Source of the DNA: Dictyophora rubrovolvata
Lineage: Eukaryota > Basidiomycota > Agaricomycetes > Phallales > Phallaceae
NCBI GenBank assembly: GCA_029959195.1
Contig: CP114117.1
Coordinates: 2,542,001-2,606,000, forward strand
Reading direction: 5' to 3'
Length of the DNA: 64,000 bases
Numbering within the stretch: position 1 is the stretch's first letter; every line of letters starts with the position of its first letter. Shown piece after piece: positions 1,942 through 47,572 of the stretch. The position numbers and the translations under genes were made by a program. The notes below the pieces were generated by a model. The model did no database searches. It was not told where the DNA came from and saw only the letters and a program-made list of their open reading frames with translations.

Positions 1942-2914
1942 TTACCCTTCTATGTCTGCGGTGTTTGTTGACCTAGTTTCGTTAGAATTCCGGCTCATAC
2001 TCTGAACACTTTGCATTAGAATGTGCCGAAGAAGCTGTCTGGTAGTAAACCCATACCGTCGAGCTACTACTTCCTCGTAAGGTATTGGCACCCACAAGGG
2101 TTTCGGAACTGCTTCCTCTGATGGTTGGGAAGTATGGGTGGATATTGGCCCCGGTGGGAAGACTTTTTCTAAATTGATGTATAGAATTGGAATGCTGGGG
2201 AGACCTACTGATAGTTGAAGCCTCCCCACGTGCCTCCTGCATTAAAGCCTTGCTGAAATGTTTGTCTAGAAAATGGATTGTGATGTTGTGCCAAGTATTT
2301 TCTCGATGAACTTGAGTTGACATACTGTGGGGGCTCTGGAGCAACATATTCTCTGAATGGAATGAGAGTGAGCTACATGCATATCCGTGATTTTCTTTTA
2401 ATACATACATTGCGTCCGGAGCTATGGCCTGATGGTAATTTGTAGTCATGTTTTGCCGTCTCAGCATTTCCTCTCTGGATGTGAGCTGAAGAAAATTCAG
2501 GATAAACAATGCAAGCCCCGATGAAGCATTACAGCTTACGTGAAACGTCTCCATGATCATTCGTTCTTCGTTATTGAGGGCTGGAGCTAATTCCCCAGGC
2601 TCAAGTTGAATCCTTAAGCGAAACATTCTGCCAAGCACTTCTCTTCCCCACCTTCTCCACCAAGACTCTCCATTCAAAATATAATGGGTTCTTTGGAGAG
2701 CGGCAACCAACGTCGTTTGGAGGCTAAATAATTAGATTTAATTGGTTATAGAGGATGAGCCTTACTCCATTAATCTGTCACGAGCCTGCTCCGCAATAGC
2801 ATGTGTCGTCCGGTCCTCCTGAAGTTCATTAGTTATGGTCCTCATATCGGTGTCGATTCTACGTAATGTACGTCTGTACTCTTCTACCAATAAATTGAGA
2901 GTGTGTCGATTCAT
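1942..2914 (-). CDS. Coiled-coil family gene CC1 (unrecognised family)
   Basis: Exons on the minus strand 2914-2766, 2723-2540, 2485-2209 and 2168-1942 join in phase to 278 residues; introns are 40-54 bp. The N-terminus is charged and helical with LVEEYRRTLRRIDTDM, then a predicted helix around LQTTLVAALQRT, a Trp/Arg-rich stretch (WWRRWGREVLGRM) and an acidic segment (NNEERMIMETFH). The C-terminal exon has PKPLWVPIPYEEVVARRYGF and a polar tail. I do not recognise a known domain. The first two intron positions and phases (2 then 0), and the sequence around them, match CC2 (39934-40693) and CC3 (44522-45870), so the three form one family. It lies between kinase copies A and B and is divergent from B. 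The final intron (2169-2208, 40 bp) is the least certain. Confidence 0.68.
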
Positions 2915-4293
2915 GAGATGAATTATAGGTGATCGAAAGCAGGAACGAATAACAGGAGGTGTTGTATCAGGTTCAGTGAGCCTGAGGTTCGTACAGCAGA
3001 AGAAAGGATCCTTTTATATAGTGCGATACATGGCATCTACACAATTGCCATAAATTAAGTATGAAATTAATTTATTATTAATTTTTGAGAGATTCAAAAG
3101 AATTCTTATAGCCGGACCGTTGCCACAGATTTGACCAGAACCGTTCAAAATACAGCAAGATTTGCCCGAGCGAAAATGGCAGCATACGTAATCTGGACTG
3201 GTTGTCTTTGATTATTCGAGGGTGTCTTGACTCTTGAATTCATTAAATAAATAGGCTAGCACTATCTATCCGCCTCTAAGGCAGTTTGGAACTCAAACGA
3301 CAGCGACAAGTGTGGGCCATGAAAAGATCAATGAATTTGTTTTACACTATACCGGATTAGAAAATAAAACACGTTGACAATTAAATCAGCAGAAAAGATA
3401 CATTTGTTGGGTAATTTTTCATTGAGTCGTTTCATACGGGAATTTACTGAAGCGGCACTGGAGCCATGAAAAACGGAAGTTGGCACATGACAAACGAAAC
3501 AACGAAAAGTCGACGTTGTGACTTCATTGTTCTTTATCTCACACCACTTGCTTTGAAGTTGCTTTGAAGATGTTTTTTTCTTTGCTGTGAAGGTTTTTTA
3601 CGACATAGAAGAAATGTATCTTGTATTTGTGGGATATCTGAACGTAGTTCTAATATGCCTCAAAAAAACTCTGGATTTTAAATTCTAGAAAATATTGCCA
3701 AGTTATTCCCCCGTCTCCAAAATATTTATGTACTTCAATTTCAGTTAACTCATGTCAAGTGACCGGCACCCGAAAGAACAGGTTTTTCCGGCTGGAAAAC
3801 CAAAGAACTTGCCCCCCGTTTAGGGTTGGGGATGGATTGCTGTTGGCTGTGCATGTCCATAAAAACTGTTCACGTTGGGACTCGGTTGCCGAGCCTGTGA
3901 AAGAAAATTACCATCGATAATCAGCCCGACGACTTTTTTGGCAACATCACGCCAATGGTGAGCGCTGAGCGTTTAATCATTTGTCATTGTCCGCGTTCCA
4001 TCGAATGATTATTTATAGATCGACTGGACCTGGGCACCCGACACAGAAACTGGACATATCTCTCGAAAGATTCATTCCTCGGATTTGACACTAAATTGCG
4101 TCGAATATGAGAATTTGAGCTTCCAACGTTTAAATAATTCAAGTATTGCGTAATTGCCTGTTATTGCGCACTAAAACTGCCTACGTGGTAAATTGCCGTC
4201 GCGGGCCAGGTTCTCGGGCCGCTGTGCGCGTTTAAGTTGTTCTTAGTGCATCTATTCCAACGCGTCAGGTTTTCACTCTCCTGCACACCACCA
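2915..4293. other. Intergenic between CC1 and kinase B
   Basis: Apart from the CC1 TATA box, no gene was seen. An AT-rich tract near 3050-3110 and a TTATTTATAG stretch near 4010 could belong to the kinase B promoter. No repeat recognised. Confidence 0.5.
3011..3020 (-). promoter_or_regulatory. TATA box of CC1
   Basis: Minus strand reads TATATAAAAG about 100 bases upstream of the CC1 start. CC2 and CC3 have the same kind of box at a similar distance. Confidence 0.6.
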
Positions 4294-5679
4294 ATGGAAT
4301 ATCCCTGTCCTCTCGACTATCAGCGACGCTTTGACCATGATCTGGCGAGGTATGAGCTAGTCTGGAGGGATCATTATTGCTTTTTGTTACAACGCGGGTA
4401 TCGGCTTAGACCCCGATACAAACCAGGATGGCAGGGTTCATGGTTAACGAATGGGAAGGACGCAGTAGACTGCGAAGACTTCGTTTCAATAAACACTGTA
4501 TGTGCGCTCTGCACGGTCTATACGAACCTCTTTAACTCCAGCAGAGGCATGTCTTGGATGCGAAACGGGTTTCGGACGATGTCAAAGTTGTGCTCAAGCT
4601 AGTGTATACCGATCAAGACGAAATACCCATAGGTCTCTATTTATCGTCCGCCTTCCTTCGCTCCGATCCTAGGAATCATTGTGTTCCCATTCTTGACGTT
4701 ATTCCAATGCCTAATAACGATGTTTTCGCCTTCATTGTAATGCCTTTGTTGAGGCATTTCAATCATCCGTATTTTCAGCGAAAGATTGAATGCTTTGAGG
4801 CATTTTATCAGATGTTAGAGGTGATTCTGATTTGTCCCATCTTTTTCTCGATACTTATCATATTCCTGCAGGGAATAGAGTTCATGCATGAGCATAATGT
4901 CGCTCACAGGTAAACTGTTAAAAGCTCCGCACAAATATTGTTAATCTCATGCTTAGAGATGCCTGTTTGCTCAACTTTTATATGGATGCTACAAGATTAA
5001 TTCCGAAAGGATTTCATTTCAATCGATCTCTCACATACGATGGCGTACATTACATATCCAGACACAAATCTCGAAAGGCCGTTGGACCAATGAAATATTA
5101 CTGGATTGATTTCGACCTTTCTATCCGATTTACCAGTTTCGAGAAACGACATCTGGTAGTTGGGAAGTTTAGTCAGGAAAAGGATGTTCCAGAATTGTCG
5201 TGGGATGTACCGTATGATCCATTTAAGGTCGATATATTCCAAGTAGGAAAGACCATCAAGCGTGTTTGCGATGTAAGTGGAACTTTCGGTTCATTATTCA
5301 TGTGTTGAGTTAAAGTTACTACATACAGGCTTACGAAGGACTCGAAGTATTTCAGCCTTTCATTGATTGTCTCACCCAGCATGATCCCAAGCTTCGTCCT
5401 ACTGCCTCAGAAGCATTGTTGGAACTCGAACGACTGAAGAAAAGTTTGAGTCGTGGAAAGCTCAATGGTTTAGTTGTTCACCGTTCACATGGTTTTAAAC
5501 CGGGAAGACAACGAAGCCGACTAAGAAGGAAAAAGGTATCTACTTGGCAAGTTGACTCTCATCAATACTTTTTATACAGATATTCATTTAAATGGTATTT
5601 CCAAAGGAAAAAGCGCAATTTGGAAAACATTTTAAGTTGGATAAATAACAAGAAGAACAAGGAGAAATTACTAGTGTAG
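4294..5679 (+). CDS. Protein-kinase-like gene, copy B (five exons, intact)
   Basis: Exons 4294-4497, 4545-4820, 4872-4909, 4957-5272 and 5329-5679 have the same lengths as copy A exons and also give 394 residues. The strand-3 lysine (VVLKLV), HRDACLLN catalytic loop and DFD motif occupy the same residues as in A. The open frame runs upstream of 4294, but the ATG at 4294 (MEYPCPLDYQ) aligns with all paralogues and is preferred. Differences from A are mostly substitutions, clustered after KGFHF in exon 4, while introns 2 and 3 are almost identical. This points to a recent tandem duplication or gene conversion. It is divergent from CC1. Confidence 0.88.
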
Positions 5680-7207: not shown

Positions 7208-7322
7208 AGAGCTGATACCTACGCTGTAATAAAAAGCAATAACGGTCCCTCCAGAGGAGCTCGGTTTTGGTCAAATCAAATTTAAAACGCAATTGATACT
7301 CGAGATGACAGGGATATTCCAT
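7208..7322 (-). pseudogene. Kinase-like exon-1 relic (copy D)
   Basis: The minus strand from the ATG at 7322 encodes MEYPCHLEYQLRFKFDLTKT followed by ELLWRDRYCFLLQRRYQ, clearly the first ~37 residues of the kinase-like family. Similarity stops before the conserved RPRYKPGW block, and no later exon is found downstream. It is a truncated duplicate, closer to copies A/B (MEYP start) than to the MGYP subgroup. Confidence 0.8.
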
Positions 7323-8828: not shown

Positions 8829-10473
8829 CTATAGTCGGTCGTCGCTACTGGCCGGATGGACGATCGTGCGGTGCAAACCAGCATGTAGACCTGTGTTAGC
8901 CGCATGTCCATAAACGTGCGATGTAGTCATAGCTTGTGGGTGACTCGGCGTAGCAGGTGATGAAGGATCGTATGACATCATCTTTTTAAATACACCACAC
9001 AAAAAACGGAATGAGCGGCCGCAATAGCACAGGGTTTGATTTTGAAAAAAAAAAAAAACATACCGGAACACTTTCCAAATTGGCTTGTGATGCCATCGCA
9101 CTGCTATTGACGCTTCCACCTCTTGGAGTCAGGCCCAATCCTAAGCCACTATGACCCGCGGGCAATAAGTGTTTGGTGCGAGCCAACACTTCCGAGGCGA
9201 CGTCTGCACCGTATTGGTCAGCCAGTTGACTGTAAACAAACACCAAAGAAAATTAGTAAAGACTTTGAGCTGATAAAAACGCGGTCAGAACGCACCTTGC
9301 ATAATTGTCCATAATAACCGCCATCGAGTTAAGTGAAAGACGATACGCCTTGGGCATCATTCCTTTTCCGAATCTATAGGTCACATGATTGGAACAAAGA
9401 AGGGCGGTAACCATCACACCAATCTGTGCGGGGACAATACCAAACACGATAATATACCATTTTTCAAGTATAAATCGCTGGAAATCCAAAAAGGGACCTT
9501 TACATCCGGGCAGCATAGATCGCGAATAGCAACTCTGGCTGATAGTTGCTTCCGTGAAGGGACTGAAATATCCACAGCAGTCTAGCGCGTTTTGAATGCG
9601 TTCCCGACCGAAGAGACCTAGGTCCCGAGACCACTGAGAGTTCAGCTTACCTTCAAGATTGAAGGTGCGTCGCTTGTAGGTTAAGTAGCCTGGAACGAGG
9701 AGGAAGATGAACGAGATCCAGAGAAGGAGGTTGTAGATGGCTAAGAAGGCGCGGTTGTTCAAGAGAAGACCGGACCATCCGATAAGGGAGGTGATGAGGC
9801 CCACTGATGCGGCACATGTTGATACTGTTACTCATGAATGAGAAAGGAGGGTGTTCAAGTTAAAGTTAGGATAGACTTACGGATGAGTTCAGTACGATTA
9901 GCCACTCGTACAATATCGGCGTGTGTCCAGATATTGAACCACGTAAGGAGACAAAAGATGAGTGCGCCAAGGGAATAAAGAGAGAGCTAGAAACGATATG
10001 ATTGATTGATTGATTGATTGATTAGGGTCCACAGAATAGATTGAGTATAGCATACGTACAAGGAGATTAGAAAAGAACAGCGTCCACTTGAACCTGTTCC
10101 ATCTCATCCTTGGACGTTTCCCGGTTGAATCGGGCATAACACCATCGTAGTCTTCATCAGTAAGACCTGGCATACGAGCTTCGCCTGCGCCAAAAGCCTC
10201 GCGGCCTCCACCTCGTTTAGGTACACCGACACCGTCTTCACCGGCTGCCTCTTCTTTTTTACGACGACGATAACTTGAAGGAGAATGAGGTCTAGAGAAT
10301 TTGGAGGGTAGGTAGTTGACAGATAGTGATACAGCTTCTTTGTCTGAGAAAGGGTTGAAGGAGGTGTCGGCCCCCGCGCCTGTTGCACTGCGAAGAGAGC
10401 CTGGGGATGAAGCGAAATGGTGAAGAGATGGCGGGTGTTGTTGAGGAGATGGAAGAGCTAAGGACGAGGACAT
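8829..10473 (-). CDS. Fungal tetraspanin
   Basis: Five minus-strand exons, 10473-10060, 9986-9881, 9824-9296, 9229-9064 and 8981-8829, stay in phase and give 455 residues. A Ser/Pro-rich cytosolic N-terminus of ~130 residues precedes four membrane segments at about 131-156, 175-195, 200-221 and 297-317. The large extracellular loop between segments 3 and 4 carries the tetraspanin hallmark CCG (256-258) and further cysteines (272, 281). The C-terminal tail is long and polar. Tetraspanins organise membrane microdomains; basidiomycete members of this type are plasma-membrane proteins linked to growth and, in some pathogens, host penetration. Intron 1 contains a (GATT)n microsatellite, and intron 4 has a long T-run right after its donor. 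The last short exon is supported by phase but is the least conserved part. Confidence 0.88.
10000..10023. repeat. (GATT)n microsatellite
   Basis: About six GATT units inside intron 1 of the tetraspanin gene. Confidence 0.9.
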
Positions 10474-12757: not shown

Positions 12758-13801
12758 TCACTTCTTTGCCGTAAGCGCCAGATATTCAACGGGCTGGGAG
12801 TAAATGTCTTTGAATCCGATAAGATCCTGCGGAATCATCTGATGCAAGGGTTGCGTGTAAGTGCATGATGGATTAATCTGTGCGGAACGTTCCGTAGAGG
12901 TCTGCCGCAGGGCGAGATTCAACTCAGTCTGGATATACTGAGTGGCAGAAACGGTAACCTCCTGTATGGCGAGAGCAATTGCCGCTCGGATTTTCGCCTC
13001 CATCTCCACTGTAACGTGTTGAACAGTGCTGGTAGCGATTTTGATCATGGTGTCTCTGACGACCGTTTGCCCCGCCAGAACGGAGAAGTCAGGCTCAGCG
13101 ACAACTTTAAACTTCATCCACGGAACTTCTGTAAACATTTTGGTGAACTTCTCGTCAAAGTTGATAATGACGATACGTCCGTCGTGGATTCTCAGTCTGG
13201 TACTGAGATCGAAAGTGCTGACGACCCAGTTTTTCCCATCGGCAGCTCGACATTTCGCCCTCAGGATGAATCCGTCGATGATATTAATTTCGGTACATGA
13301 GTCTTTGAAGTTTCTGAATTTTATACCATCCCATACGAGTCTGCCATCGATGTTGGCGATGTAATCATTGACATTGAAGGAGGCTTCGACACGAATTCCG
13401 TTCCATTTAAGGCATTGTCCCGTTAAAATACCTATTTCGGAAATCTTTAGCCCGAAGCAAGCTTCAGCCAAAGTGGTCCTCACGACCGTGCTATATACCC
13501 CGAATGTAAATTTACCATCAAAGTAGCTTGGAAACAATAATAAGAACATACGTGGATTGTTCAATTTCTACATTTGTCTGATGGGCAGAGGACGTGCTAA
13601 CAGCTCCCAAGGTAGTAGCCGCAGCTGAGACAATCGAAGACTCGGTGCCAATTTTAGCAACCTCCTGCTTCTGGACGCCATTTTTCAAGGAAACGGGTGA
13701 GACGGCACGGATATCCTTACTAAAAACAAAAGTTGAAACATTCGAATTATGTCTAGTACTAGGGGGAATTCTACGTACGTTTCGGCTGGCTTGGTGGACA
13801 T
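12758..13801 (-). CDS. CVNH (cyanovirin-N homology) domain protein
   Basis: Exons 13801-13779, 13719-13552 and 13490-12758 join in phase to 307 residues. Residues ~75-180 match the CVNH fold: two related halves with paired cysteines (C75, C90 and the later SC..KC pair) and the typical segments ANIDGRLVWDG, RAKCRAADGKNW and STFDLSTRL. Known CVNH proteins in fungi bind mannose-type glycans and are small single-domain lectins. This one is unusual in having a Ser/Thr/Ala-rich N-terminus of ~70 residues and a C-terminal extension of ~120 residues with a predicted amphipathic helix region (VEMEAKIRAAIALAIQEV). No signal peptide is visible, so a cytosolic site is likely. The intron at 13491-13551 was chosen over a 25 bp alternative because of size and frame. 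Confidence 0.78.
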
Positions 13802-18674: not shown

Positions 18675-19568
18675 AGGATAGAGTTTCGAAGAATTAGAAA
18701 AGTCTCGATGGGTGGCAGTGAAAGATTCAGTTTTCGCGGTCAACTTCAAATGCTCATGTTCTCGTGTCACTACATCGACATAAATATAACTTGTATTTTT
18801 CTGGATAATTGGGAAGAATGTGGGAGGGAAGAAAAAATTACATAACGAAGAGCGCTAAGCCTTTTTCAGCTGCCCGTTTGAAACTTCCAGTTTAATGGGC
18901 TACCCCGTGCCTCGAAATCATCAACCGCGTTTCGAATTCGATTTACATGTTTTTGAATTGGTCTGAAGGGACAATTATTACTTCTTGCTTCAACGTGGGT
19001 ATCAGCTGAGACCCCGATATAAGCCCGGGTGGCAAGGCTCTTGGTTGACGAACGGAAAGTCAGTGTCAGAATGTGAAGATGGTCTCATTAAAAATGTACG
19101 CATTTTCAATCGAAAGTGTATAATGATTTTTTTTGATTCTTGTAGCATATGCCTGTTTTGGATGCAGTGCGAGTCTCGGACGGCGTTAAAGTCGCGCTCA
19201 AGCTTGTTCATACCGATAGAGAAGAAATACCAATAGGCCTCTACTTCTCGTCGAAGGCTCTCCAGGCAGATCCTCGAAACCACTGTGTTTCAATACTAGA
19301 CATTATCCCAATGGCTGATAACGATATTTTTGCTTTTATTGTCATGCCTCGTCTGCTATATTTCTTTCTTCCGCCTTTCGAACGGAAAATTGAATGTCTA
19401 GAAGCACTAAATGCTAAAGGCACAGCAAGTTCGATCGGGTTCCCACGACATAAGCCACCACTGCCGCCCACGGTTTGAGCCAACAGCCAATGAGATGTGT
19501 CGGAAGCAAATTTTGTCTGATGGTTGTGTGTAGATTGATGTTAAATTAACGATCAATTAAAAGCAAAG

Positions 19569-19641
19569 CGTGTACTCATAGTCTAGTGGTTACTGTCTTA
19601 TTGACTTTGTGATGAGCGTTGGTTCGATTTGTGTGTGCTGT
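19569..19641 (+). other. tRNA-like sequence in left arm
   Basis: TAGTCTAGTGG at 19579-19589 fits the Pol III A-box consensus and GGTTCGATTTG at 19621-19631 resembles a B box, spaced about as in a tRNA; a T-run follows at ~19646. Cloverleaf pairing was not verified, so it is not called a functional tRNA. Confidence 0.5.
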
Positions 19642-20053
19642 GTCTTTTTTTTCAATTTTTTCATGTGACATGGAAAAAAAGGTACGAGTATGAATACAGT
19701 GACTGTTTTTGCTTTTGAGAATAAGTATCGCCCAAATAACAGGCACAATCTGGTAAGTAATTCTCGTTATTTGCTTACAACTTACATTACAAGTTGTTGA
19801 ATTTCAATATTGTAAAATGGACGGAGCACAATAAAACATGCTCAGAAACCGCGGGCACCTAACATGGACAATACAATAAATGGCTGAGCTACAAAGTCAC
19901 AGACCATAGCTTCTCCAAATTGTTGCGGATGATGGGGGAGAACTCAATGCTTTTGAATATAATATTATTCATAGCTCTCAGAGATCTCTGAAAGCTGCAC
20001 TCTTACACTTAGAGGTGTATTTATCAGTGTGCGAAAAGATCATGTGAAAAAAA

Positions 20054-20128
20054 TGCGGCATACAGGAATTGAACTAACACTCATCACAAAGTCAATAAGA
20101 CAGTAACCACTAGACTACGAGTACACAC
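20054..20128 (-). other. tRNA-like sequence in right arm
   Basis: The inverted copy of the left-arm sequence: the same A box (TAGTCTAGTGG), and AGTTCAATTCC in the B-box position, followed by TGCCGCATTTTTTT. Confidence 0.5.
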
Positions 20129-20612
20129 TTTGCTTTTAATTTATCATTAATTTAACGTCAACCTACACATGACCATCAGACAAAATTTGCTTCTGACACA
20201 TCTCATTGGCTGCTGGCTCAAACTGTGGGCAGCAGTGGTGGCTTATGTCATGGGAACCCGATCGAACTTGCTGTGCCTTTAGCATTTAGTTCTAGAAGCA
20301 TTTCATCAAATGCTCGAGGTACTGCATTTCCATTATTTTACTTGACTCATCTATATTCATGCATCGATGTTCGCAGGGATTAGAGTTTATACATAAACAT
20401 AATATAGCTCATAGGTACGAGCCACAGAAAACTGTACCTTGTGATTACTAACTTCTTCACCGAACAGAGATGCTTGCTTTCTCAATTTTCTTGTCGATGC
20501 TACAAAAATCATACCCAAAGGATTTCATTTTTGTCGATACTTCCGTCATCCTGATGGACTAACGTGAATTATCAAAAAATTGAGAAAGGCCGTGGGACCC
20601 ATCAGATATTAC

Positions 20613-21000
20613 TGTCAGGGTACGCTAGTGTCGTCCCCTTATTTTTCTACATTTATCTTCAGTTCTGGTCTATTTTATTTATTCCCATATTTCTCGTATT
20701 CTATTCCATCTCTTGCATTTCCCTCTCCTTCCGTATTCCCATTTTTCCTTCAATGGGCGCTGAGCGCCTGTTCTCATCAGAGCCATGGCCTAGGCCCTGG
20801 CGCGTATCCACGCCCAGTCCATGAACCAAAGGCCATGTGTAGCCTTCGCTGTTTTTCATAGTATATAGTTAGTAGCCCTAGAGGAGGGATCCCTAAGTTT
20901 GTTCTCTTAGGATCCCCTCCCTCTAGGTGAGTTAGTACTATTCCTAGAATATATTTTGCTTAGGATCCCCTCCCTCTAGTCTGAATGAGTAGCCCTGACA
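20613..21000 (+). repeat. LTR-A, 5' LTR of Gypsy-1
   Basis: Begins TGTCAGGG and ends CCCTGACA. Contains the LTR-A signature hairpin built from CCTAGAGG..GGATCC arms, and a TATATAGTTAG stretch. It is followed by GTAGAACAAACTTC, the same sequence that follows the 5' LTR of Gypsy-2. Confidence 0.85.
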
Positions 21001-33682: not shown

Positions 33683-34774
33683 CTCCCACTCAGCACACTA
33701 ACTTGTCGCTCCCACTCCCAATTCGCTCTGGAACCTTTCGAACGTTTCACGCGGCAGTTGCTTTGTGAATATATCCGCCAGCATGTGTTTCGTCAACACG
33801 TATTTGGTTGCAATTTCTGCCATCTCCACCTGCTCTCTGATGAAGTGATACCAGATGTTGATGTGCTTTGCTCTGCTGTGCACTATTGGATTTCGTGCAA
33901 GGGCAATGCAGCTCTGGTTGTCGATGTGCAGGATCAATGCTTTCAACTGTGGGTATCCGAGATCCGCAAGTAGGGTATGCAACCAGATGGCCTCCTTAGT
34001 GGCAGTCGATACAGCCATAAATTCGGCTTCAACGGTTGATAAAGCGACGGTGGGTTGCTTTTTCGATGACCAGGAGATGGCACCGTCTGCTATGTCGAAA
34101 ACAAGGCCTGCTATCGAGTGGTGATCATCCGGATCTTGAGCCCAATCTGAGTCGCTCCACCTTACAACATCAATGGTGGACTCAGTGTTGGATCCAAAGG
34201 TTAGTCTAAATTCAGCGGTCCCTTTCAGATACCTCAAAATCCTTTTTGCGGCTTCTAAATGTATTTTTCCAGGGTTACCGCCAAACTGAGAGACCAAACC
34301 GACTGCAAACTGGATGTCCAGTCGGGTCTGTGTTGCAAACAACAAGGAGCCAACCAACTCGAGGAACTTAATGTTGCTGGCATATTCAAGGTAAGCTTTG
34401 CGTTCCTCATCCGTCAATGGACATTCAGATTTGCATAGGTTGTGTTTAACAGTTAGCGGTGTGCTGATGGGGTTACAGTCTGACATGCTGAAACATTTGA
34501 GTATCTTATGGATATAGGCCGTTTGGTTCAGCGAGATAGTACGTTTTTCTCTATCTCTTTCAACCTGGAGGCCTAAAATATATTTTAGTTCTCCCATGTC
34601 TGTGATGTCAAGATGGGTGTGCAAGTCCATCTTGAATTGCTCGATTTTCTGGCAACGGCCATGTCATCGACATAAACAAGGACCATTAAACCAATGCCAT
34701 CTTCCCCACTTTCCTTCAAAATGTACAGGCAGTCATCTGCAGCGCTTTTTTCAAATTGAAGCTCTGAGAGTATT

Positions 34775-35129
34775 TGTCAGGGTACACTAGCGTCATCCCC
34801 TTATTTTCCTTTGTTTATCTTTGGTTCTGGTTTATCTTATTCATTTCCTTATTTCTCGTATTTTATCCCATTTCCTGCATTCCCCCTTCCTTCCGTATTC
34901 CCTTCTTTCCCTCCAACGGGCGCTGAGCACCCGTTCCCATCAGAGCCATGGCCTAGGCCCTGGCTAAAAGTCCAGGACCGGTGCGTATCCGCGCCCAGTC
35001 CATGAACCAAAGGCCACGTATGGCCTTCGCCGTTTTTTCATAGTATATAGTTAGTAGCCCTAGAGGAGGGATCCCTAAGTTTGTTTTCTTAGGATCCCCT
35101 CCCTCTAGTCTGAGTGAGTAGCCCTGACA
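34775..35129 (+). mobile_element. LTR-A (short variant) inside Copia
   Basis: 355 bp of the second LTR-A subtype (marked by TTCTTTCCCTCCAAC); lacks the ~50 bp between its two CCTCCCTCTAG repeats. Flanks GTATT and GGGTC do not match. Confidence 0.8.
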
Positions 35130-36196
35130 GGGTCTGTGTTAATTGGCAAGTACAATTGACGGCAAAAGGAGAAGGCCAGTGAAACAGCCCTTCTCGCGAC
35201 AAAAGACAAAAAGCACGGAAAGAGGGGTGAAGGTTTCGGACCCAAACCTGATGACGAATGCCGTTATTGTCATGAAAAGGGACATTGGGCCAGGCAGTGT
35301 CCAAAGAAGGACAAGAATAAAACTGGGACAAGCGGAACTGTAGGCACAGCGAATCACACAGCAGTGGTGCAGAACCTTGGTGTGCGTGAAGTCGGACAGC
35401 TGTTCATGGTCCAGGCCAGTCTGTTTTTGAAGTCCAATCTTGTTCTCAATACCGGAGTGACATCACACATGTTTCGCGATCAAAAATTCTTCAAGAACTA
35501 CACGAATGTATCTGGCGAGTTCGTGTCAGTGGGAGATGCGTGGAGTGTGCCAGTTGTCGGCCAAGGATCTGTTACCTTCAAGAGTAGATTGCCGACAGGC
35601 TCTTATGAAGTGGCTTTGCACAAAGCGTTGCATGTTCCATCATTAGCTGTCAACCTTGTCAGTCTTGGGCAATTACAGAAGAATGGAGTCACTTACAGCA
35701 GCTGTGATGGTGGAATCAGTGTCTGGCAGGGTGGCAATGAGATTTTCAGAGCTTCACTAGCAGGCGGCACCGGGACATTGTACCACATCGACTGTTTGGA
35801 AGACCAGAATGAAGCTGCACTTGCTGCGACAAGTGGGAGCTTACAAGTCTGGCACTGTTGCTTAGGTCATCTTCACCTTGATGCAATCTGAGAGATGACA
35901 CGCAAAGATATGGTGAAAGGTCTGCAGATTTCAGCGATGAATGAGTTTGATCATGTGTGTGAAGGATGTGTGACTGGAAAGTCTCACCAATTGCCATTCC
36001 CGAAAGCAAGTGATACTGAGCATGCCAAGATGGATTTAGTCACGGTTGATCTGACTGGTCTGTTCTGTGTCAAAACTTGGTCCAGGATGAGATTCGCGCT
36101 TCTAGTAGTGGAAGCGGCTACAAGATTCCCGGTCGGTTGATTGCTACGCACAAAGGGCAAAGCGATACAAGCCCTACGAGAAATAATCGCCATGCT

Positions 36197-37130: not shown

Positions 37131-37135
37131 CCTCA

Positions 37136-38062
37136 ATGTGTTTTTACTCTCAGCAACAAGTTTCATTATCAACAAGATCATTGAAAATCGTGAAAGGCGA
37201 ATCACACAGTTAAAGTTTGAATTTGCTATTTATCATCACAGTAAGTTTTTTGATTCAACAATCTCCACCCTAAGTAATCCATTCGGTAGACAACTCTGCT
37301 GTCCTCGTCCGATGAGCTTATATAGCTCTTTAATTAAGATGTATAAATTTTTATCTCGCATGTGAACAATTTGTCCCAATCCTGTCAATTGAGACGACAT
37401 TCTAACATTAGCCCGACATATATTGAGTGAAACTCATGGCAGGCAAGGAGCGACCCGAAATCGAAACTGATTACTCAAGAATTTGAGATATTTAGTAGTC
37501 TAATGGAGTTGAAAAGAGACGTCCACGCCAGTGATGGACAATGTATTAACCTTAATCGAAAGTGCGGTGCAACGCAATGTAAGAACATGAAGTGTTTCTA
37601 TTTGCTAGCAAAAAAAGGAGCTATTTAACCCTTTGTAAGAATTTAGAAGGGAAAGGGCGTCAGGAAGCCGATATATTACTCCGACCCTCACTTGACGACA
37701 AGCGAAGAAAGGGTTGCGAATCCAAAAGTGGAAGTTTGAGTTCACTTTCGACCAGAGAAGTTCACAAAGTTTGCAGATCGTCCTTTAGGTTCTCCTGTTT
37801 CCTTCATGAAATTGGATTAACTGAAGGGCGTACAGTGTATTAAAATTAGATATATCTTACTTACCATCTGGGGAATCACCAGTTTCAATTGTGACTTTCC
37901 AAATTCGTACATGAGAGTAAGACACCGTTTTAAATTAGATATGAGAATGAGGTATTGGGAAACACTTTTGACATAGCAGAATCGAGGGCACATTCATCGC
38001 AAGCGAATGATACAGGATAAAATAATGAAGAAAAGAGTCAAGACTAGTACACCGGAGGTCTT
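37136..38062. other. Intergenic, part of segmental duplication
   Basis: No gene. It aligns by eye with 41070-41873 in several blocks (for example around 37150-37230, and 37690-37800 against 41660-41770), downstream of kinase E and kinase G respectively. Confidence 0.6.
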
Positions 38063-39454
38063 TCATGTTTTATGTTTTTGTTTTTCAGCATTTAGCCAAT
38101 TGAGTAAATTTGCCAACTTGCGCTTCTTCCTGCAAAGATTCCCCTCTCTTAACCTTCTGCCTGAAAACATCTATATTGACCGACTTACCAAGCAGATATC
38201 CTTTTCCTTCTTATCCGGCTTTGTTTTTGAGATTTAGTACCTGATATATGATCTATTACCAGCCCGTTTAGCTTCCCGCGACTCAATGTTTTCCAAAGTC
38301 GTTCGAGTTCCCTTAGCGCTTCCGAAGCAGATGGTCGTCGCTGTGGATCCTCCTGAGTCAGATAGGCAATGAAAGGCTGCATGAATTCGAGCCCATCATA
38401 TTTCTGTCGAGATACAAATTGACATATTGCCGGTGAGGATGAAGGTATTTAACTCACTTCGCAAGTGCGTTTCATAGCCATACCTACTTGGAATATATCT
38501 ACCTTAAACGGATCATAGGGCACCGTCCACGACAGTTCTGGAACGTCCTTTTCTTGTCCGAGTTTTCCAACCAGCCAATGACGTTCTTCAAAGCTACGAA
38601 ATCGATATGAAAGTCCAAAATCAATCCAGTAATATCTGATGGGTCCCACGGCCTTTCTCGACTTTTTGATAATTCGCCTTACTCCGTCAGGACGGCGGAA
38701 GTATTGACAAAAATGAAATCCTTTGGGTATAATTTTTGTAGCATCGACGAGAAAATTGAGAAAGCAAGCATCTCTGTTCGGTGAAGAAGTTAGTAATCAC
38801 AAGGTACAGTTTTCTGTGGCTCGTACCTATGAGCTATATTATGTTCGTGTATAAACTCTAATCCCTGCGAACATTGATGTATGAGTATAGATGAGTCAAG
38901 TAAAACCAAAGGAACGCAGTACCTCGAGCATTTGATGAAACGCTTCTAGACATTCAATTTTCCGTTCGAAAGGCGGAAGAAAGAAATATAGCAGACGAGG
39001 CATGACAATAAAAGCAAAAATGTCGTTATCAGCCATTGGGATAATGTCTAGTATTGAAACACAGTGGTTTCGAGGATCTTCTCGGAGGGCTTTCGATGAG
39101 AAGTAGAGGCCTATTGGTATTTCTTCTCTATCGGTATGAACAAGCTTGAGCGCGACTTTGACACCATCCGAGACTCGCACTGCATCCAAAACAGGTTTAT
39201 GCTACAAGAATTAGCAAAAAAACATTATACACTTTGATATAAAAAATGCGTACATTTTTAATACGACCATCTTCACATTCTGAAACTGACTTTCCGTTCG
39301 TCAACCAAGAGCCTTGCCACCCGGGTTTGTATCGGGGTCTCAGCTGATACCCGCGTTGAAGCAAGAAGTAATAATTGTCTCTCCATACCAATTCCGAGGC
39401 ATGCAGATCGAATTCGAAACGCTTTTGACAATCTCGAGGAACGGGGTAGCCCAT
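38063..39454 (-). CDS. Protein-kinase-like gene, copy E (six exons, intact)
   Basis: Exons 39454-39254, 39201-38923, 38864-38827, 38773-38458, 38403-38189 and 38129-38063 stay in phase and give 371 residues. Kinase landmarks: VALKLV with Lys 86, HRDACFLN at 172-179 and a canonical DFG at 224-226 (DFGLSYRF), so this copy keeps the standard catalytic residues. Compared with A and B there is one extra intron, after the SAW triplet, giving a short last exon that reads KKRKLANLLNWLN; the same arrangement is found in F and G. CC2 lies upstream in the same orientation. Confidence 0.86.
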
Positions 39455-39933
39455 TGATTGAAAGGTGAGTGAACCGTAAGGGAAACAAGTTTTGCTTTAG
39501 CGCCTATCACATAAGCTTAGGGTTTACAAAAAGGTTTGAAAGGAGAAGTTTTCGCAAAGTTTTCGTTGAGTTTTCCTTATGTAATTTTTATTTTGGCGCA
39601 AATTATGTGAAAAATCTTGACAAAAGGGGACTAAATGGATCTCATTCGACCCAAAGCGAAGCCTCGAGGCCTCAATGTAACGAACGTTTAGGGTCTTACA
39701 TCAGAAAGAAGGTTCCGAAACTTGTAGTTGTTTACGCATGTTGATATTCACCTTTGCAAGCCGTGTAAATTCCCTCTCACCTATGTCACTCCACATTGCG
39801 CAGTCAAATTTCAAAGCTCCCGACGTAATTTTCTATGAAGACACGAGAGTTTGTGATTTCAAGGTGAGTATGGATCTTTGGTATTTTTCTATCATTTATA
39901 AAGCGCTATTGATTTACTAGGTAAGTTTACCAT
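39455..39933. other. Intergenic between kinase E and CC2
   Basis: No gene. TTAGGGTTTAC near 39517 also occurs upstream of kinase G (near 43318), a conserved promoter block of the duplicated kinases. Confidence 0.5.
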
Positions 39934-40693
39934 CTACGAGCTTGAGATTTGAATCATTTTGAACATTGGAAGTTTCATAGCTTGATACTGAGCACGCTAG
40001 GATGTCTATGCAGTGAAACAATGGAAAAAGGCGGAAACATACATGAATTAGAGTATAATTTTCCACCCCAGCTTCGTTAATCTGCCGGATAACCTGAGCT
40101 ATAATCATGATTAGACTGAAAAGACTCGGAGTTGTCACTGGCGGCAGTACGACATACATGTCAGAGGGACCTGCCAAACGCTGAAGCTGGCGTGCTTCGA
40201 GTAATTCTCCAGATTTTAGCTGAAAACGTTTGCCCGACGTGAATTTATCAAATCGCTACAGTGACTGGAGTCAAGCTCACACTGAACTCTGCCATGATAA
40301 GCTCTTCCTCGTGTATTGCGTCCTCCGGAGATATTAACCCGGACTCTTTCTTCTTCAACGTCAAGGCTTTCAGAATCCTTCTTACAAACGCTCTAATGGA
40401 CGATTCGGTCAATGATTTTCGATGTTGTTTTAGAACGACCCAGAGGTCCTTGTCGAGCCTAGTGGATGGTTAAATAAACAAGGGCTAATATATTCATTAA
40501 AATTCGCAAGTTCTTACTCCTTTAAACGGGTCAACGCCTGTTCTGTTATATCATACAACTCAGGTATGTCCAAATTTTCGTATCTGATGATCTCGATGGA
40601 GTCGATATCATCTTCGACTTTGATGAGGGCATCCTTACATTCGCGTATAGCGACCTCTTTTGGATTTTCAGGTGGTTGGATGTTTGAACTCAT
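39934..40693 (-). CDS. Coiled-coil family gene CC2
   Basis: Minus-strand exons 40693-40518, 40458-40281, 40219-40043 and 39987-39934 give 194 residues. The ATG at 40693 (MSSNIQPP) was chosen because CC3 starts MSSGEDNP. Shared blocks with CC3 are CKDALIKVEDDIDSI, RLKELDKDLWVVLKQHRKSL, an Arg/Lys-rich helix (FVRRILKALTLKKKESGL) and EEELIMAEFS; introns 1 and 2 lie at the same places and phases as in CC1 and CC3. Exon 3 (LKSGELLEARQLQ..) matches CC1 exon 3. It lacks the long disordered C-terminus of CC3. No known domain; helical, probably soluble. The last exon is tentative. Confidence 0.62.
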
Positions 40694-41873
40694 ATCGGAA
40701 AACACAGGAGAGGAGTGTGAATGAGCTTGTAATATAGAAAAATTCTTCGCCTTCTTATAGAGTGGCCTTAGCCGGGAAGTCGCAAAGATTCCTCGGATAC
40801 AGGTATTTGGAAGGACTTATCGATACTCATCATTAACATTGCTTCAAAGCAAATTGAAGTGGTTTATATGAAAAAGGAATACCATATTATTATGTAACCT
40901 CAAAATTAATAAAGGTTGTCGATCGATATAGATGTTTTCTGGCAGAAAGTTTAGAAAGTGGAATTTTTATAGTATAACTTGGGCTATGTATATAATCAGC
41001 ATTTTCAATATACGCAATGATTTCAAAAACACATACGGATTTCTGGGCTGCGTTTACCTCCTGACATTCAACATGTTGTTACTCTTAGTAACGAGTTTCA
41101 TTGTTGACAAGACCGTTGAAAATCGCGAAAGGCGCCGAAAGGTCCATGACACGAATCACACGGTTAAGGTTTGAATTTGCTATTTATCACATTAAGTTTT
41201 TTGTTTTCGGTTCGACAATCTGCACCCTAAGTTATCCATGCGGTAGACAACTTCGCTGTCTTCGTCCGACGAGCTTAAATTTTTTTCTCGCATGTAAACA
41301 ACTTGTCCCATACTTCGAACGTAGCAGAATAGAACGCAAGTAAATGATATGAGATAAATTAATAAAATAAAGATTGCATCTGAGGCCGAGGTCTTTCATG
41401 GTTTTCGTTAATTTTAGCCAGTCTCGCACATTTTCCGACTTGCGCTAAAAGTGATTTACCATAACTCTCTGTTCATCTATCGGAGTTTCGATGGTCGGGT
41501 TTTTTTTTCTTTTTCGACATAAATGACAGAAACATGTTTAAGTGCTGGAGATCTCAGCCGGAGCTTCGCGTCGCCGCCACAGCCCATTACGGTAACAACA
41601 ATTCTAATTTTGGAAGTGAGGAATTGGGGATATGTTACCCCGACCTTTCCTTGACGACAAGTGAAGGGAAGGGCCGCGAATCCAAAAGTGGAAGTATGGG
41701 TTCACTTTGGACTAGAGAAGCCCACAAAGTTTGCAGATCGTCCTTTGGGTTCTCTTGTTTCTTTCGGGCAAAGATAATAAGCCTATTGTATTCGAAGTAT
41801 GATTAAATTGAATTAACTGAAAGGTGTACAGTGCAGAATGAAAGAATGAAGCAAAAACTAAACCGGAGGTCTT
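40694..41873. other. CC2 upstream region and kinase G 3' flank
   Basis: 40800-40920 matches the CC3 upstream region (about 45990-46110), but no kinase start follows on the plus strand, so the divergent partner seen for CC3 is missing here. 41070-41873 matches 37136-38062. No gene seen. Confidence 0.55.
40751..40759 (-). promoter_or_regulatory. TATA box of CC2
   Basis: Minus strand CACTCTATAAGAAGG, the counterpart of CACTCTATAAAAGGG upstream of CC3. Confidence 0.6.
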
Positions 41874-43236
41874 TCATGTTTTTGTCTCATCATTTAGCCA
41901 ACTGAGAATATTTGCCAACTTGCGCTTCTTCCTGTAGGGATTTCCTGAATCTTCTGCCTAAAAACATCTATATTGACCGACTTACCAAGCAGATATCCTT
42001 TTTCTTCTTATCCGGCTTTGTTTTTGAGATTTAGTGCCTGATATATGATTTATCACCAGCCCGTTCAGCTTTCCACGACTCAATATCCTCCGGAACCGCT
42101 CGAGTTCCTCTAGCGCTTCTGAAGCAGATGGTCGTAACTGCGGGTCCTCTTGTGTGAGATAGACAATGAAAGGCTGCATAAATTCGAGCCCATCATATCT
42201 CTATCGAAATACTAAATTGACGTGTTATTGGTGAGGATAAAAACTTCACTCACTTCGCAAGTACGTTTGATAGCCATACCTACTTGGAATATATCTACCT
42301 TGAAGGGATCATAAGGGGCCGTCCATGATGCTTCCGGAACGTTCTTTTCTTGTCCAAGTTTTCCAACCAACCAATGCCTTTCTTCAAAGCTACGAAATCG
42401 GTATGAAAGTCCAAAATCAATCCAGTAATATCTGATAGGACCTTCGGGATTTATGGACGATTGGAGTTACTCCGTCGGCGTGATTGAACACTTACAATAA
42501 TGAAATCCTTTGGGTATGACTTTCGTGGCATCCATTAGGAAATTGAGAAAGCAAGCATCTCTGGGCGAAGAAAGTTAGCAATGACATGCTACAGTATTGT
42601 TTTCGTACTAGCTCGTACCTATGAGCTGTGTTATGTTCGTGTATGAACTCTAATCCCTGCAAACATTGATATATGAGTATAGATAAATCAAGTAAATCCA
42701 TACACAGTACCTCGAGCATTTGATAAAACGCTTCCAGACATTCGATTTTCCGCTCAAAAGGATAGAAAGATAGCAGAAGAGGCATAACAATGAAAGCAAA
42801 AATGTCATTATGAGCCATTGGAATAACGTCCAGTATTGGAGCACAGTGGTTTCGAGGATCAGACTGAAGAGCTTTCGACGAGAAGTAGATACCTATCGGT
42901 ATTTCTTCTCCATCGGTATGAACAAGCTTGAGCGCGACTTTGACGCCGTCCGAGACTCGCACTGCATCCAAAACAAGTTTATGCTATGAGAAGCAAGACT
43001 TACTATACATCTTGGTAAAGAGAATGCGTAAGTACATTTTTGAAGCGACCATCTTCACATTCCGATATGGACTTTCCGTTCGTCAACCAAGAACCTTGCC
43101 ACCCGGGCTTATATCGGGGTCTCAGCTGATACCCGCGTTGACGTAAAAAGTGATAGTTGTCCCTCCATACCAATTCCGAGGCATGCAGATCGAATTCGAA
43201 ACGCTCTTGATAATATGGAGGCACGGGGTAGTCCAT
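41874..43236 (-). CDS. Protein-kinase-like gene, copy G, with a possible new intron
   Basis: Exons 43236-43036, 42983-42711, 42656-42619, 42560-42496, 42441-42254, 42200-41986 and 41931-41874 keep frame and give 345 residues. Landmarks VALKLV, HRDACFLN and DFGLSYRF are present. In all other copies the stretch between the catalytic loop and YYWIDF is coding; here it has small deletions and an in-frame stop, but begins GTAAGTG and ends AG. Removing these 54 bases restores the frame (KGFHYC then PIRYYWIDFG). If that intron is not used, the gene is a pseudogene. Predicted loss is 21 residues of a variable loop, not of catalytic motifs. Confidence 0.7.
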
Positions 43237-44521
43237 TGATTAGTCTGCACGAAGATAAGTAAGTGAACCGAAAGAGAACGAGCTTTGCTGTCTTTATGTA
43301 ACGCCCATCACATAAGCTTAGGGTTTACACGTTTACGCGTTAGGGTTTAAATTTGGAAGAAATTTTCTTTATGCAATCTTTTGATTTTGCGCGAATTATG
43401 TAGCAAAACCTTGAAGACAAAAGGGGGCTATATAAGTCTCAATCGACCTAAAACGAAGCCTCAACTGTTCCTTCCTACCCATCACACTGCCCCCCTACTC
43501 TTTTTCTGTACATATCTAACGTTAAAGGCTTTGCCTTGAACTCTTTAGCTATATTCTGCTGCTTGTAATATAGGCTATATTACTCTAGCCGTTGTTATGC
43601 CCCCCTACTCAGGCTACTATTGTACATTGCTCGCTGTTTGAAATTTCCACAACAAGCTTGAACTCCAAATCCGACGCCAACTGTAAGTAATCGCAATATT
43701 CCCGCTCTTCACCACGCTTTATCACGCGTTTGGCCGCGTTCTGCAGGAACTGATTGGCGTCATTGTCCATGGTACCCGTAAAGCTCATACTCTATGCCCC
43801 CAGGATATGCTTCGAATCGCCCTTCTTCGGGCCCCTTGCGCTCATCCTTACCCTTGTCTCAGGCAAACATCTGGCTTCGTCGCTCATTTCTATTTTTAAG
43901 GCTTATTTGACATCCGTGACAAAAAAGTGAGGAAGGTGTCGAACACTAAGTTTTGAAACTCTCATGGGTAAGCTCGGTAATCGAGTACCTAGTATATTGA
44001 GGCCTGACTCGACTTATACCACCAGTACAGTCGGTTTGTGTGAGCCGTGTCGGTTTTTTTTCTTGAAGCTTTGAAATAGATGTCGTATCATGTTGAAATT
44101 CTTTACATGTGAAATCAATGATTATGCCGTGCTCAAGTTCCCTTATATTGCTAATAAATTAAAAGCGAGTGTATGCAAACTCTGCTACAGGTTCTACTAA
44201 ACGTGTTGAGATCCCGATGTTTAGAGTTATGTATGTACAATATATTTCAAGGCTAATTCTTCGATACAAGCGATGATATATCTGTCTACGTGTATGCAGG
44301 TATTCAAAGTGATCGATTGGATTTCAAACATTTGAGGAAAATAGAGCAGCGGATGTAGTCTTAGCATAAATTTCTTTTACTAGTGCGCACCATAGCGATA
44401 GCCTGAGTTGCCACTGGCGGCAGGACCGGGAGGATATTCTCCACGTCGAGATTGGCGTGCACTTTGGTTTCTAAGACTCGTTTCTGAATGGGTTGAAGAA
44501 AAGGCTCAGCCGAACATGGAC
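43237..44521. other. Intergenic between kinase G and CC3
   Basis: Holds the kinase G promoter, an LTR-D fragment (43501-43597), and downstream sequence of CC3. Near 44400-44470 the minus strand encodes a short Gly/Pro-rich stretch (RRGEYPPGPAASGNSGYRYG) after the CC3 stop; it may be a remnant of a longer C-terminus. No other gene seen. Confidence 0.5.
43501..43597 (+). mobile_element. LTR-D fragment with 13 bp direct repeats
   Basis: 97 bp matching the end of the longer (3') form of LTR-D, flanked on both sides by TGCCCCCCTACTC (43488-43500 and 43598-43610). Confidence 0.78.
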
Positions 44522-45870
44522 TCACTGAGGGTTGAAATGGTCAAATGGGACACCCTCCTCTTCCTCCTCGATAAAGTTTGGATCGTCCACTGAGCCATAA
44601 GTAGCCTCACTACTATAATACTCTTCACTGAAACGAGGGCCGTCAGAGGACACCCGTGCACCTCGACTTAATTCAGCGTCTCGTGGATCGTAAGATCCGC
44701 CTGAAGGGGTAGATCGGTGGCTGCCCCGGGTGACTACATCCGAGTGGACACTCTCAAAACCAGAATTCCGATCCCATTGAGAAGAACCGATGCTCCCACC
44801 AGATTGATGCCTACAAAATATGAATATGAAATGTAGCATTGTTATTACTCTTACCCTTGCGAGCTTCTCATAGAGCGGTATGGAGGAGGAGGATCGTTGA
44901 TTATCGATTCCTGATCATAATTGACTTCTACTCTCCTTTGAGAGCTATAATAGTTTCGCTGGGAAGGGAGGTCCGTGTAAGAACCCCGGGGTTCTCTACA
45001 TCACCGTGCGGATCACGCGGCTATTGAATACGAGGGTTTTTATTGCTCACCTAGAAGTCAAACCTGAGGATCCTTCGTAAATGCGATTAGTTGAAGAACT
45101 ATCCTGTTTGTCAGTTTTCCTGTCCTTCTCTCAGGACGAGTACATACGGTTGATCATTGCGATTACTACGGGAGCCCAAGTATGCCTTAGATTGTGCTTT
45201 GTATGCCATCGGGCTGGAAAATAAGTGAGATGTAATTAAATCCTGCATACATATATCTCTGAAAAAAATACATACGCAGAGCGGTTTGGAGTCCTATTCC
45301 TAAATAAATAAAACGGCCATAAATTCGCAAAGGCGAAGTCAAAAAGCCTCAAATGCACGATGTAGAAGCAGACGGCTGAGGTTGGTGAGATGCCTGATAT
45401 GTGAGCAATATTTTGTCGGATTCCAGCTGGACGTTTGCTTAGCGTGAACTTGTCACATCTCTTCAGCGACAAGAGGCCAACTCACATTAAACTGGGCCAT
45501 TATCTCTTGTTCCTCATCCTCTGCGGCCTGCAGAGATAATCCGGATTCCTGTTTGGATAAACTCAATTTTGACAGTATCTTCCTTGCCAATCGTTTGAGA
45601 GTAGAATCGTATAACGATTGTCGGTGTTGGTTGAGGACCTCATTTAACTTCCTGTCCAGCCTAATGATGGGTAAACAAGGAAGGACTATATTCAATTAAA
45701 ACCGCAAGATCATACGTTTTCAGTTGGTTCAACGCCGGGTCTGTTACTTCCCAGAGCTCCGGTTTATCCATGTTGGTATACTTTAAGGTATTAATTGAGT
45801 CAATAGCGTCTTCAATTCTGATTAACGCCCGTTTGCATTGATCGAGAGGGTTATCTTCGCCCGAACTCAT
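44522..45870 (-). CDS. Coiled-coil family gene CC3 with disordered tail
   Basis: Eight minus-strand exons join in phase to 321 residues: 45870-45716, 45660-45486, 45426-45359, 45299-45276, 45213-45148, 45098-45051, 44995-44855 and 44810-44522. The N-terminal ~110 residues are charged and helical (CKRALIRIEDAIDSI, LDRKLNEVLNQHRQSL, ARKILSKLSLSKQESGL, EDEEQEIMAQF) and match CC1 and CC2. The C-terminal ~190 residues are polar and apparently disordered, with DPPPPYRSMRSS, several SSQ/RGS blocks, and an acidic end EEEEEGVPFDHFNPQ. The PPPPY run could bind SH3 or WW domains (inference). No known domain. Divergent from kinase F, starts 306 bases apart. Exons 3-6 are short and are supported only by phase and splice signals. 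Confidence 0.62.
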
Positions 45871-46176
45871 ATTGGAATTTGCAGAAAGTTATAAGAAAAG
45901 AGAAGGGTAAGATTCAAGAATGGGTATGTAATCGTATAGGAAATTTCATCGCCCTTTTATAGAGTGGCATTACAAGAATTCCTCGGATATGAGTTTTTGA
46001 AAGGATGGATGGACTCACTCATTATAGCTTCAAAGTAAATTAAAATGAGTTGGTTTATACGAAAAAGGAATACAGTATTATGTAATCATAAAATTAATAA
46101 TTCGATGCTTTACGTAAGCACCTCAAGGTCGCTCCCCAAACAAACTCCCGACCCAGAATTCTGAATTCTGAATAAC
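45871..46176. promoter_or_regulatory. Shared divergent upstream region of CC3 and kinase F
   Basis: 306 bases between two outward-facing start codons. On the minus strand TATAAAAGG at 45953-45961 serves CC3. The plus side has an AT-rich tract with TGTAATCATAAAATTAATAA at ~46080. The block is conserved upstream of CC2 (40750-40920). Confidence 0.6.
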
Positions 46177-47572
46177 ATGGGCTACCCCGTACCTCGAAAT
46201 TATCGAGAGCGTTTCGAATTTGACTTGCAAGCTTCAGAATTGGTTTGGAGGGACAATTATTACTTTTTGCTTCAACGCGGGTATCAGCTCAGACCCCGAT
46301 ACAAACCCGGATGGCAAGGTTCTTGGTTGACGAACGGGAAGTCCATAACAAAATGTGAGGATGGACATCTGAAAAGTGTATGTATTGATTTTCATAAGTC
46401 AAGATGTTTCATGAATTTTGTCGATCCTCATAGCATAAGCCTGTTTTGGATGCAATACAAACCTCGGACGGTGACCGGGTCGCTCTTAAGCTTGTTCATG
46501 CCGATATAGAGGAAATACCAATAGCCCTCTACTTCTCATCGACAACTTTACAATCAGATCCTAGAAACCACTGTGTTCCAATCCTAGACGTCATCCCAAT
46601 GTCTCATAATGATGATTTCGCTTTTATTGTCATGCCTTTGCTTTTACCCTTCTATTATCCGACTTTTGAGCGGAAAATCGAATGTATTGAAGCGTTTCAG
46701 CAAATGCTAGAGGTAGGACCTTCGAGTGGTTTGAACTACTTGTACGGGACTTATGATTATTGCATGCAGGGATTAGAGTTCATACACGAACACAACATAG
46801 CTCATAGGTATGACAAAAAGAAAACTGTAGCATATGATTACTAACTTCTTCATCGAGCAGAGATGCTTGCTTTCTCAATTTTCTCGTAGATCCTTCAAAA
46901 ATCGTGCCCAAAGGATTTCATTTTTGTCAACACTTCCATCAGCCTGACGGATTAACTCCAATTATCAAAAATTCGAGACGAGCCGTAGGGCCTATCAAGT
47001 ATTATTGGATTGATTTCGAACTTTCATACCGATTTCGTAGCTTTGAAGAACGTCATTGGTTGGTTGGAAAACTCGGCCAAGAAAAGAACGTTCCGGAAGC
47101 GTCGTGGACTGTGCCCTATGATCCATTCAAGGTAGATATATTCCAAGTGGGTATGGCTATAAAACGTACTTGCGAAGTAAGTAACTCATTTTCATTCTCA
47201 TTGGTAACCCGCCGTTTAGGAGTTCGACAGAGATATGATGGACTAGAATTCATGCAGCCTTTCATCGCTTCTCTGACTCAAGAGGATCCGCAGCTACGAC
47301 CATCCGCTTCGGAAGCGCTAAGGGAACTTGAACGGGTTAGGAAAACTATGAGTCGTGGAAAGCTACACGGGGTGGTGATAAATCATATATACGGTACTAA
47401 ATCTCAAAAAAAAAGCCGGCTAAGAAGGAAAAGGATATCCGCTTGGTAAGCCGCTCAATATAGATACTTTCGGGCAGAAGATGTAGGGAATCTTTACAGG
47501 AAGAAGCGCAAGTTGGAAAATATGCTCAATTGGCTAAATAGTCAAACAGAAACTGCAAAATCTCCGGTGTAG
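46177..47572 (+). CDS. Protein-kinase-like gene, copy F (six exons, intact)
   Basis: Exons 46177-46377, 46434-46712, 46770-46807, 46861-47176, 47231-47445 and 47500-47572 give 373 residues with introns of 52-57 bp. Landmarks: VALKLV (Lys 86), HRDACFLN, and DFE at the DFG position (DFELSYRF). The N-terminus MGYPVPRNYRERFEFDL places it with E, G and pseudogene C. The last exon reads KKRKLENMLNWLN as in E and G. It is divergent from CC3, with which it may share a promoter. Confidence 0.87.

Follow-up and report, generated by a model that had tools for sequence, protein, structure and literature searches.

A 64,000-nucleotide window of the Dictyophora rubrovolvata genome (assembly GCA_029959195.1, contig CP114117.1, positions 2,542,001 to 2,606,000) carries two intermingled gene families: protein kinase-like genes and a family of coiled-coil (CC) genes predicted to encode helical proteins. 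Kinase-like copies were located in the 64-kb window by tblastn with kinase F as the query, which yielded kinases A, B, C, D, E and F together with fragments between 7.2 and 8.1 kb. Three CC genes stand among them. One kinase-like gene and one CC gene were copied as a block, and within that block the CC exons have diverged more than the DNA around them. The members of both families are listed below in order (positions counted from the first letter of the window; aa, amino acids; bp, base pairs).

30–1415, plus strand: kinase-like gene A, 394 aa in five exons with an open frame; the window start cuts its promoter off, leaving 29 bases upstream
1942–2914, minus strand: CC1, exons 2914–2766, 2723–2540, 2485–2409 and 2352–2205 (185 aa)
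4294–5679, plus strand: kinase-like gene B, 394 aa in five exons with an open frame; 88% nucleotide identity to A
7209–7322, minus strand: fragment of kinase exon 1, with no CC neighbour
18895–20614, plus strand: kinase C, in two pieces separated by an inverted-repeat element (19406–20290), 92–93% identical to D in nucleotides, with no CC neighbour
37133–40912: tandem unit 1, comprising a kinase 3' flank, kinase D (minus), CC2 (minus) and the CC2 promoter
38063–39454, minus strand: kinase-like gene D, 371 aa in six exons with an open frame; HRD and DFG present
39917–40693, minus strand: CC2, exons 40693–40518, 40458–40281 and 40219 onward; 218 aa if there is no further intron; C-terminus uncertain
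40918–40968, plus strand: 51-bp remnant of a kinase 3' end, 84% identical to D, starting 5 bp past the end of homology, right of the CC2 promoter
41068–46100: tandem unit 2, comprising a kinase 3' flank, kinase E (minus), CC3 (minus) and the CC3 promoter
41874–43236, minus strand: kinase E, pseudogene-like
44522–45870, minus strand: CC3, exons 45870–45716, 45660–45486 and 45426 onward; Ser/Tyr-rich C-terminal exons uncertain
46177–47572, plus strand: kinase-like gene F, 373 aa in six exons with an open frame, right of the CC3 promoter and divergent from CC3 across a 306-bp gap

Judged from their sequences, the CC genes are genuine genes. The initial annotation had proposed that the three are homologous, with introns at common positions and TATA-box promoters, and all of this holds. 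CC2 and CC3 are clear homologues with protein identity of 45.7–47% (45.7% over 129 aa, E 7e-34). CC1 is distant: over 86 aa it matches CC2 at 33.7% (E 5e-4, from a database that comprised only three sequences), but a profile of CC2 and CC3 recovers it at 21.3 bits, a score reached by none of 4,000 shuffles (maximum 7.3 bits among 2,000 plain shuffles and 11.9 bits among 2,000 that kept the hydrophobic pattern). Intron 1, in phase 2, and intron 2, in phase 0, occupy the same positions in all three genes; in CC1, CC2 and CC3 respectively, the junctions read RLMD/LQTTL, RLKE/LDKDL and QLKT/LDRKL at intron 1, and METFH/LTS, MAEFS/LKS and MAQFN/LES at intron 2. A third intron, also in phase 2, is modelled in CC1, and CC2 has a similar GTATGT context there, where its splicing is uncertain. 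Each promoter carries a CACT-TATA motif: with the two strands of the window taken together, the pattern CACT(0-2)TATAA[AG]A?[AG]G has three occurrences, and one is read in each CC promoter, and the TATA boxes lie at -104 (CC1), -66 (CC2) and -91 (CC3). The C-terminal exons are uncertain throughout the family. Ending CC1 at 1942, as first annotated, requires one further intron, placed by eye without computation, and CC3 may extend to about 44380, likewise judged by eye.

The CC proteins are predicted to be helical and resemble no family in the databases searched. Structure models of single exons, each built from a three-row alignment of CC exons, give a two-helix hairpin for exon 1 and three helices for exon 2 (mean predicted local distance difference test scores of 89.8 and 76.6). 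The best Pfam score was 16.6 bits against a cut-off of 27 and the best NCBIfam score 13.5 bits against 469; a PDB profile search gave 12 matches up to E 10 and no relative (best E 0.18), and Foldseek with the exon 1 model reached E 4.9 at best. A three-CC profile found no fourth member among the 2134 six-frame open reading frames (ORFs) of at least 20 aa in the window. Kinase and CC profiles had no confirmed relatives in collections of viral and prokaryotic contigs, a count that is uninformative on fungi because the collections hold viral, plasmid and prokaryotic sequences.

The kinase-like genes are better conserved within the block, where kinases D and E are 87% identical in protein and CC2 and CC3 47%. 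A, B, D and F are complete frames with four introns in common; a fifth (54–59 nucleotides, near the C-terminus) is used by D, E and F and read through by A and B. Modelled introns span 42–61 nucleotides in a window of 43% G+C. In kinase E the reading frame is closed by a stop after 201 codons, unless an additional, unusual intron ending in an AAG acceptor is spliced out. All four kinases scanned (A, B, D and F) match Pfam Pkinase, with a best E of 4e-7 and with F at 30.1 bits against a gathering cut-off of 31.7. Lys 86, taken as catalytic from its motif only, HRD 172–174, Asn 179 and Asp 224 (F numbering) are invariant across these four. Within the cluster the DFG motif differs at its third position: D and E carry DFG, F carries DFE, and A and B carry DFD. 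A PDB profile search with kinase D returned 351 matches up to E 1, of which the best 60 were generic kinases (top E 8e-4). PADLOC matches to mad6 and MkoA in all four kinases, and several to PD-T4-6, were taken as generic kinase-domain similarity.

The initial annotation had reported each CC gene to be next to kinase-like genes, and each lies between two of them, in the orders A-CC1-B, D-CC2-E and E-CC3-F. Its further claim of a repeated pairing is weaker: self-comparison finds 37133–40912 collinear with 41068–46100, the two stretches being tandem copies, so D-CC2 and E-CC3 are copies of one segment and two of the three pairings reflect one event. A kinase-like gene and a CC gene were thus copied together as one block of about 4–5 kb in a transposon-rich cluster, and the joint duplication that the annotation had proposed is seen once, at these two units. 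By its sequence CC1 is an older, much diverged copy of the CC gene, likewise placed between two kinase copies. In a permutation over 14 loci, kinases flanked all three CC genes on both sides with p 0.012; because the locus list is rough, its four non-kinase, non-CC loci being our own approximate count, the permutation p values are guides only. The 51-bp remnant occupies the place beside CC2 that matches that of intact kinase F beside CC3. It may be the leftover of a second kinase in unit 1, an F-type partner of CC2, and this is only partly supported; since D is its closest match (84% over the 51 bp), ahead of E and then F, it may also have arisen by inverted duplication of a small part of the tail of D.

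Inside the tandem block, the aligned exons of CC2 and CC3 form a divergence peak that includes synonymous sites. A block copied once would be expected to show about equal divergence at its neutral sites. In conserved codons, fourfold sites were identical at 9/23 positions between CC2 and CC3 and at 87/121 between D and E, and twofold sites at 8/19 and 110/129; pooled, 17 of 42 synonymous sites were identical in the CC pair versus 197 of 250 in the kinase pair (p 1.7e-6). Introns, with splice signals excluded, were alike in both pairs (69/93 for CC2/CC3, 121/161 for D/E), the CC promoters matched at 150 of 200 bases, and the 5' flank of the D/E kinases at 0.75 over 202 aligned bases. Exons 1 and 2 of the CC genes matched at 199/330 nucleotides, against 236/314 for their introns plus promoter (p 7e-5). 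In 50-column windows, CC2/CC3 identity ran from 0.67–0.88 in the promoter to 0.37–0.66 in exon 1, 0.77 in the core of intron 1 and 0.54–0.68 in exon 2. Among kinase pairs with both values computed, intron identity tracks fourfold identity (A/B 0.86 and 93/117, D/F 0.62 and 81/117, E/F 0.63 and 66/105, A/D 0.45 and 41/96), and the CC2/CC3 pair is the exception.

The diverged CC exons nonetheless keep their coding character. Identity at the three codon positions was 0.63, 0.68 and 0.40 over 129 codons, a pattern that indicates constraint on the CC proteins. Restricting the comparison to 91 gap-free codons left third positions at 0.396 and fourfold sites at 6/16 identical. The CC2/CC3 introns align at 0.74, whereas 43 pairs of non-homologous introns align at a mean of 0.49 and a maximum of 0.64. 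As aligned, then, the kinase genes (coding DNA and introns) and the non-coding parts of the CC genes (introns and promoter) stayed alike, and the CC exons diverged while keeping frame, introns and codon-position pattern.

Kinase promoters behave in the reverse way. By blastn, homology among kinases A, B, C, F and the fragment at 7322 begins within about 3 bases of the ATG, despite coding DNA that is 88–92% alike; their promoters are thus far more different than their genes, the opposite of the CC genes. Only D and E have upstream DNA in common. The sequence TTACATAA occurs within 300 bp upstream of six of the eight genes examined (C, D, E, F, CC2 and CC3) and has 10 matches in the window, a pattern found post hoc in copies that are not independent, CC3 and F having one site in common.

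The rest of the window is rich in mobile and repeated DNA. Kinase C is interrupted in exon 2 by an inverted-repeat element with ends of about 250 bp that are 90% alike, the outermost 40 bases being identical; the size of its 9-bp target duplication recalls Mutator-like elements. At its 3' side the same gene is cut by a dispersed repeat whose copies could be solo long terminal repeats. Rfam gave no match at gathering score in the window. The telomere-like sequence TTAGGGTTTAGGG occurs at 7731, and the window as a whole contains 20 TTAGGG and 12 CCCTAA hexamers.

9256–9831, minus strand: ORF with a tetraspanin domain, between the kinase clusters
12761–13567, minus strand: CVNH (cyanovirin-like) ORF, between the kinase clusters
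19403–20293: inverted-repeat element interrupting exon 2 of kinase C; target duplication of 9 bp
20613–21000, with 14 further matches on both strands: dispersed repeat of about 400 bp, copies 74–92% alike
21390–26190, 33701–35888 and 54194–60212: Ty3-type and Copia-type retrotransposon frames (Pfam RVT_1, RVT_2, Retrotrans_gag, RNase H, Tf2-1-like SH3 and Pol_BBD)

With two copies to compare, the divergence peak fits either of two histories. Gene conversion may have homogenised the block save where the CC proteins must differ, in an opsin-like manner, or the CC exons may have changed faster. Both would make CC the varying member beside a conserved kinase, and neither proves contact between the two. 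Our best overall explanation, held tentatively and at somewhat less than an even chance, is a co-copied block in which CC acts as the variable partner of a near-constant kinase. Selection would hold the CC proteins distinct; CC would be the specificity-giving binding partner (a regulator, adaptor or target) of the kinase; and the two might couple through the conserved N-terminal CC helices. We infer that CC is the likely variable partner and that the pair may form a functional module, in which the initial annotation had suggested a scaffold, substrate or antagonist; the observation that comes nearest to bearing on this is the strong divergence confined to the CC exons of the duplicated block. 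A stronger version, which we regard as unlikely, would see in the two genes a unit for recognition or signalling in a mushroom-type fungus. Linkage would keep a conserved kinase-like enzyme together with a hypervariable helical specificity protein, and the tandem array would homogenise kinases and non-coding DNA, with selection preserving the differing CC proteins.

A module and an ordinary tandem cluster strike us as about equally likely. The ordinary cluster, to which we give slightly under an even chance, would make kinases and CC genes neighbours only via a duplicated segment in a repeat-rich region, with no common job, CC being a fast-evolving family. It is favoured by a single duplication accounting for two of the three pairings, by a separate local duplication behind A and B (88% in nucleotides), and by the retrotransposon frames that occur throughout the window. 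Several observations weigh against the module in the same way: with the tandem copy collapsed to leave 12 loci, kinase flanking of the CC genes becomes borderline (p 0.051); at least two kinase copies, C and the fragment at 7209–7322, have no CC neighbour; kinase E, which adjoins CC3, looks broken; and orientations vary, A and CC1 being convergent, D and E lying on the same strand as CC2 and CC3, and F and CC3 diverging. The divergence peak has its own weaknesses. Its basis is a single pair of sequences with 42 synonymous sites, and CC identity already begins to fall a few tens of bases ahead of the ATG, the window over the last bases before it standing at 0.57. Neutral identity is also uneven across the block, since the 3' flank of the kinases reaches only 68.5% over 658 aligned bases. 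Synonymous divergence (dS) between CC2 and CC3 is saturated, the NG86 ratio of nonsynonymous divergence (dN) to dS is 0.09, and dN exceeded dS in none of 502 finite bootstrap replicates; positive selection on CC gains no support from dN/dS, which gives no sign of it because dS is saturated. An ordinary cluster alone, however, does not account for the contrast between the CC introns and promoter, which reach the similarity of kinase introns, and the CC synonymous sites, which do not, nor for the much older CC1 still sitting between kinases.

Two other explanations are less likely. Diverged CC exons, broken or cut copies (E, C and the remnant at 40918–40968) and a transposon-rich setting would suit a conflict locus, either an allorecognition system or a selfish killer-and-resistance pair, in which CC and kinase antagonise each other or recognise non-self and so drive CC exon diversity and copy turnover; Spok spore killers are on record from a fungus (PMC6660238). 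Here, however, the genes are separate, and several kinases accompany each CC gene rather than one; we consider such a locus improbable. More improbable still is that the CC frames are decaying or mis-modelled, with an exon divergence that stems from misalignment or relaxed constraint. The CC C-termini that cannot be modelled confidently and the small number of informative synonymous sites would allow for this, but the two introns with their phases and the promoter motif kept in all three CC genes, the codon-position pattern, the gap-free codons and the intron alignment above the non-homologous maximum speak against it. Relaxed constraint, moreover, would not drive synonymous sites past introns.

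If the co-copied block is indeed a module of conserved kinase and variable CC protein, a linked partner diversifying in its exons alone would help to reveal what such kinases sense or which targets they act on, and the locus would be a fungal test bed for recognition-type evolution. No match to the fungal kinase Pfam model, which we take to be PF17667, appeared up to E 10 in the four kinases scanned, with HMMER filters that drop most weak matches. FunK1 and FslK are expanded atypical kinase families of mushroom-forming fungi, described as lacking an established function (PMC3203195, PMC3937382). FunK1 is a fungal lineage-specific expansion that resembles Pkinase mainly in the C-lobe and carries Ser in place of Lys in the active-site loop (PMC3203195). 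The present kinases recall it as a lineage-specific fungal expansion of atypical kinases, but A, B, D, E and F have Cys at this loop position (HRDAC); this and the missing fungal kinase Pfam match speak against FunK1 membership. FslK is described as an expanded and partly species-specific kinase lineage of Agaricomycetes closest to tyrosine kinases (PMC3937382). The likeness is again that of an expanded mushroom-fungus kinase lineage, but on profile scores only, the present kinases match general Pkinase in four of four cases (best 4e-7) and a tyrosine kinase-like model in two of four (best 0.0075), so that an FslK affiliation is not favoured.

Two further systems bear on the pairing and on the peak; none of the matches listed in the open-licence literature reported a pairing between a kinase and a helical family of this sort. 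The Spok spore killers of Podospora are reportedly fungal conflict genes in which one protein with coiled-coil, nuclease and kinase parts gives both killing and resistance, whereas CC and kinase are separate gene models here. In human opsins, divergence is described as peaking in an exon that lies between introns which stayed alike, and this has been interpreted as selection limiting gene conversion (PMC3924837). Tandem copies, alike introns and an exon divergence peak are common to both cases. Conversion was shown there with several species, whereas the present comparison has two copies in one genome; and rather than one exon, the peak here takes in exons 1 and 2 and extends into exon 3. What is new here is that a CC exon divergence peak lies within an otherwise alike kinase-CC block.
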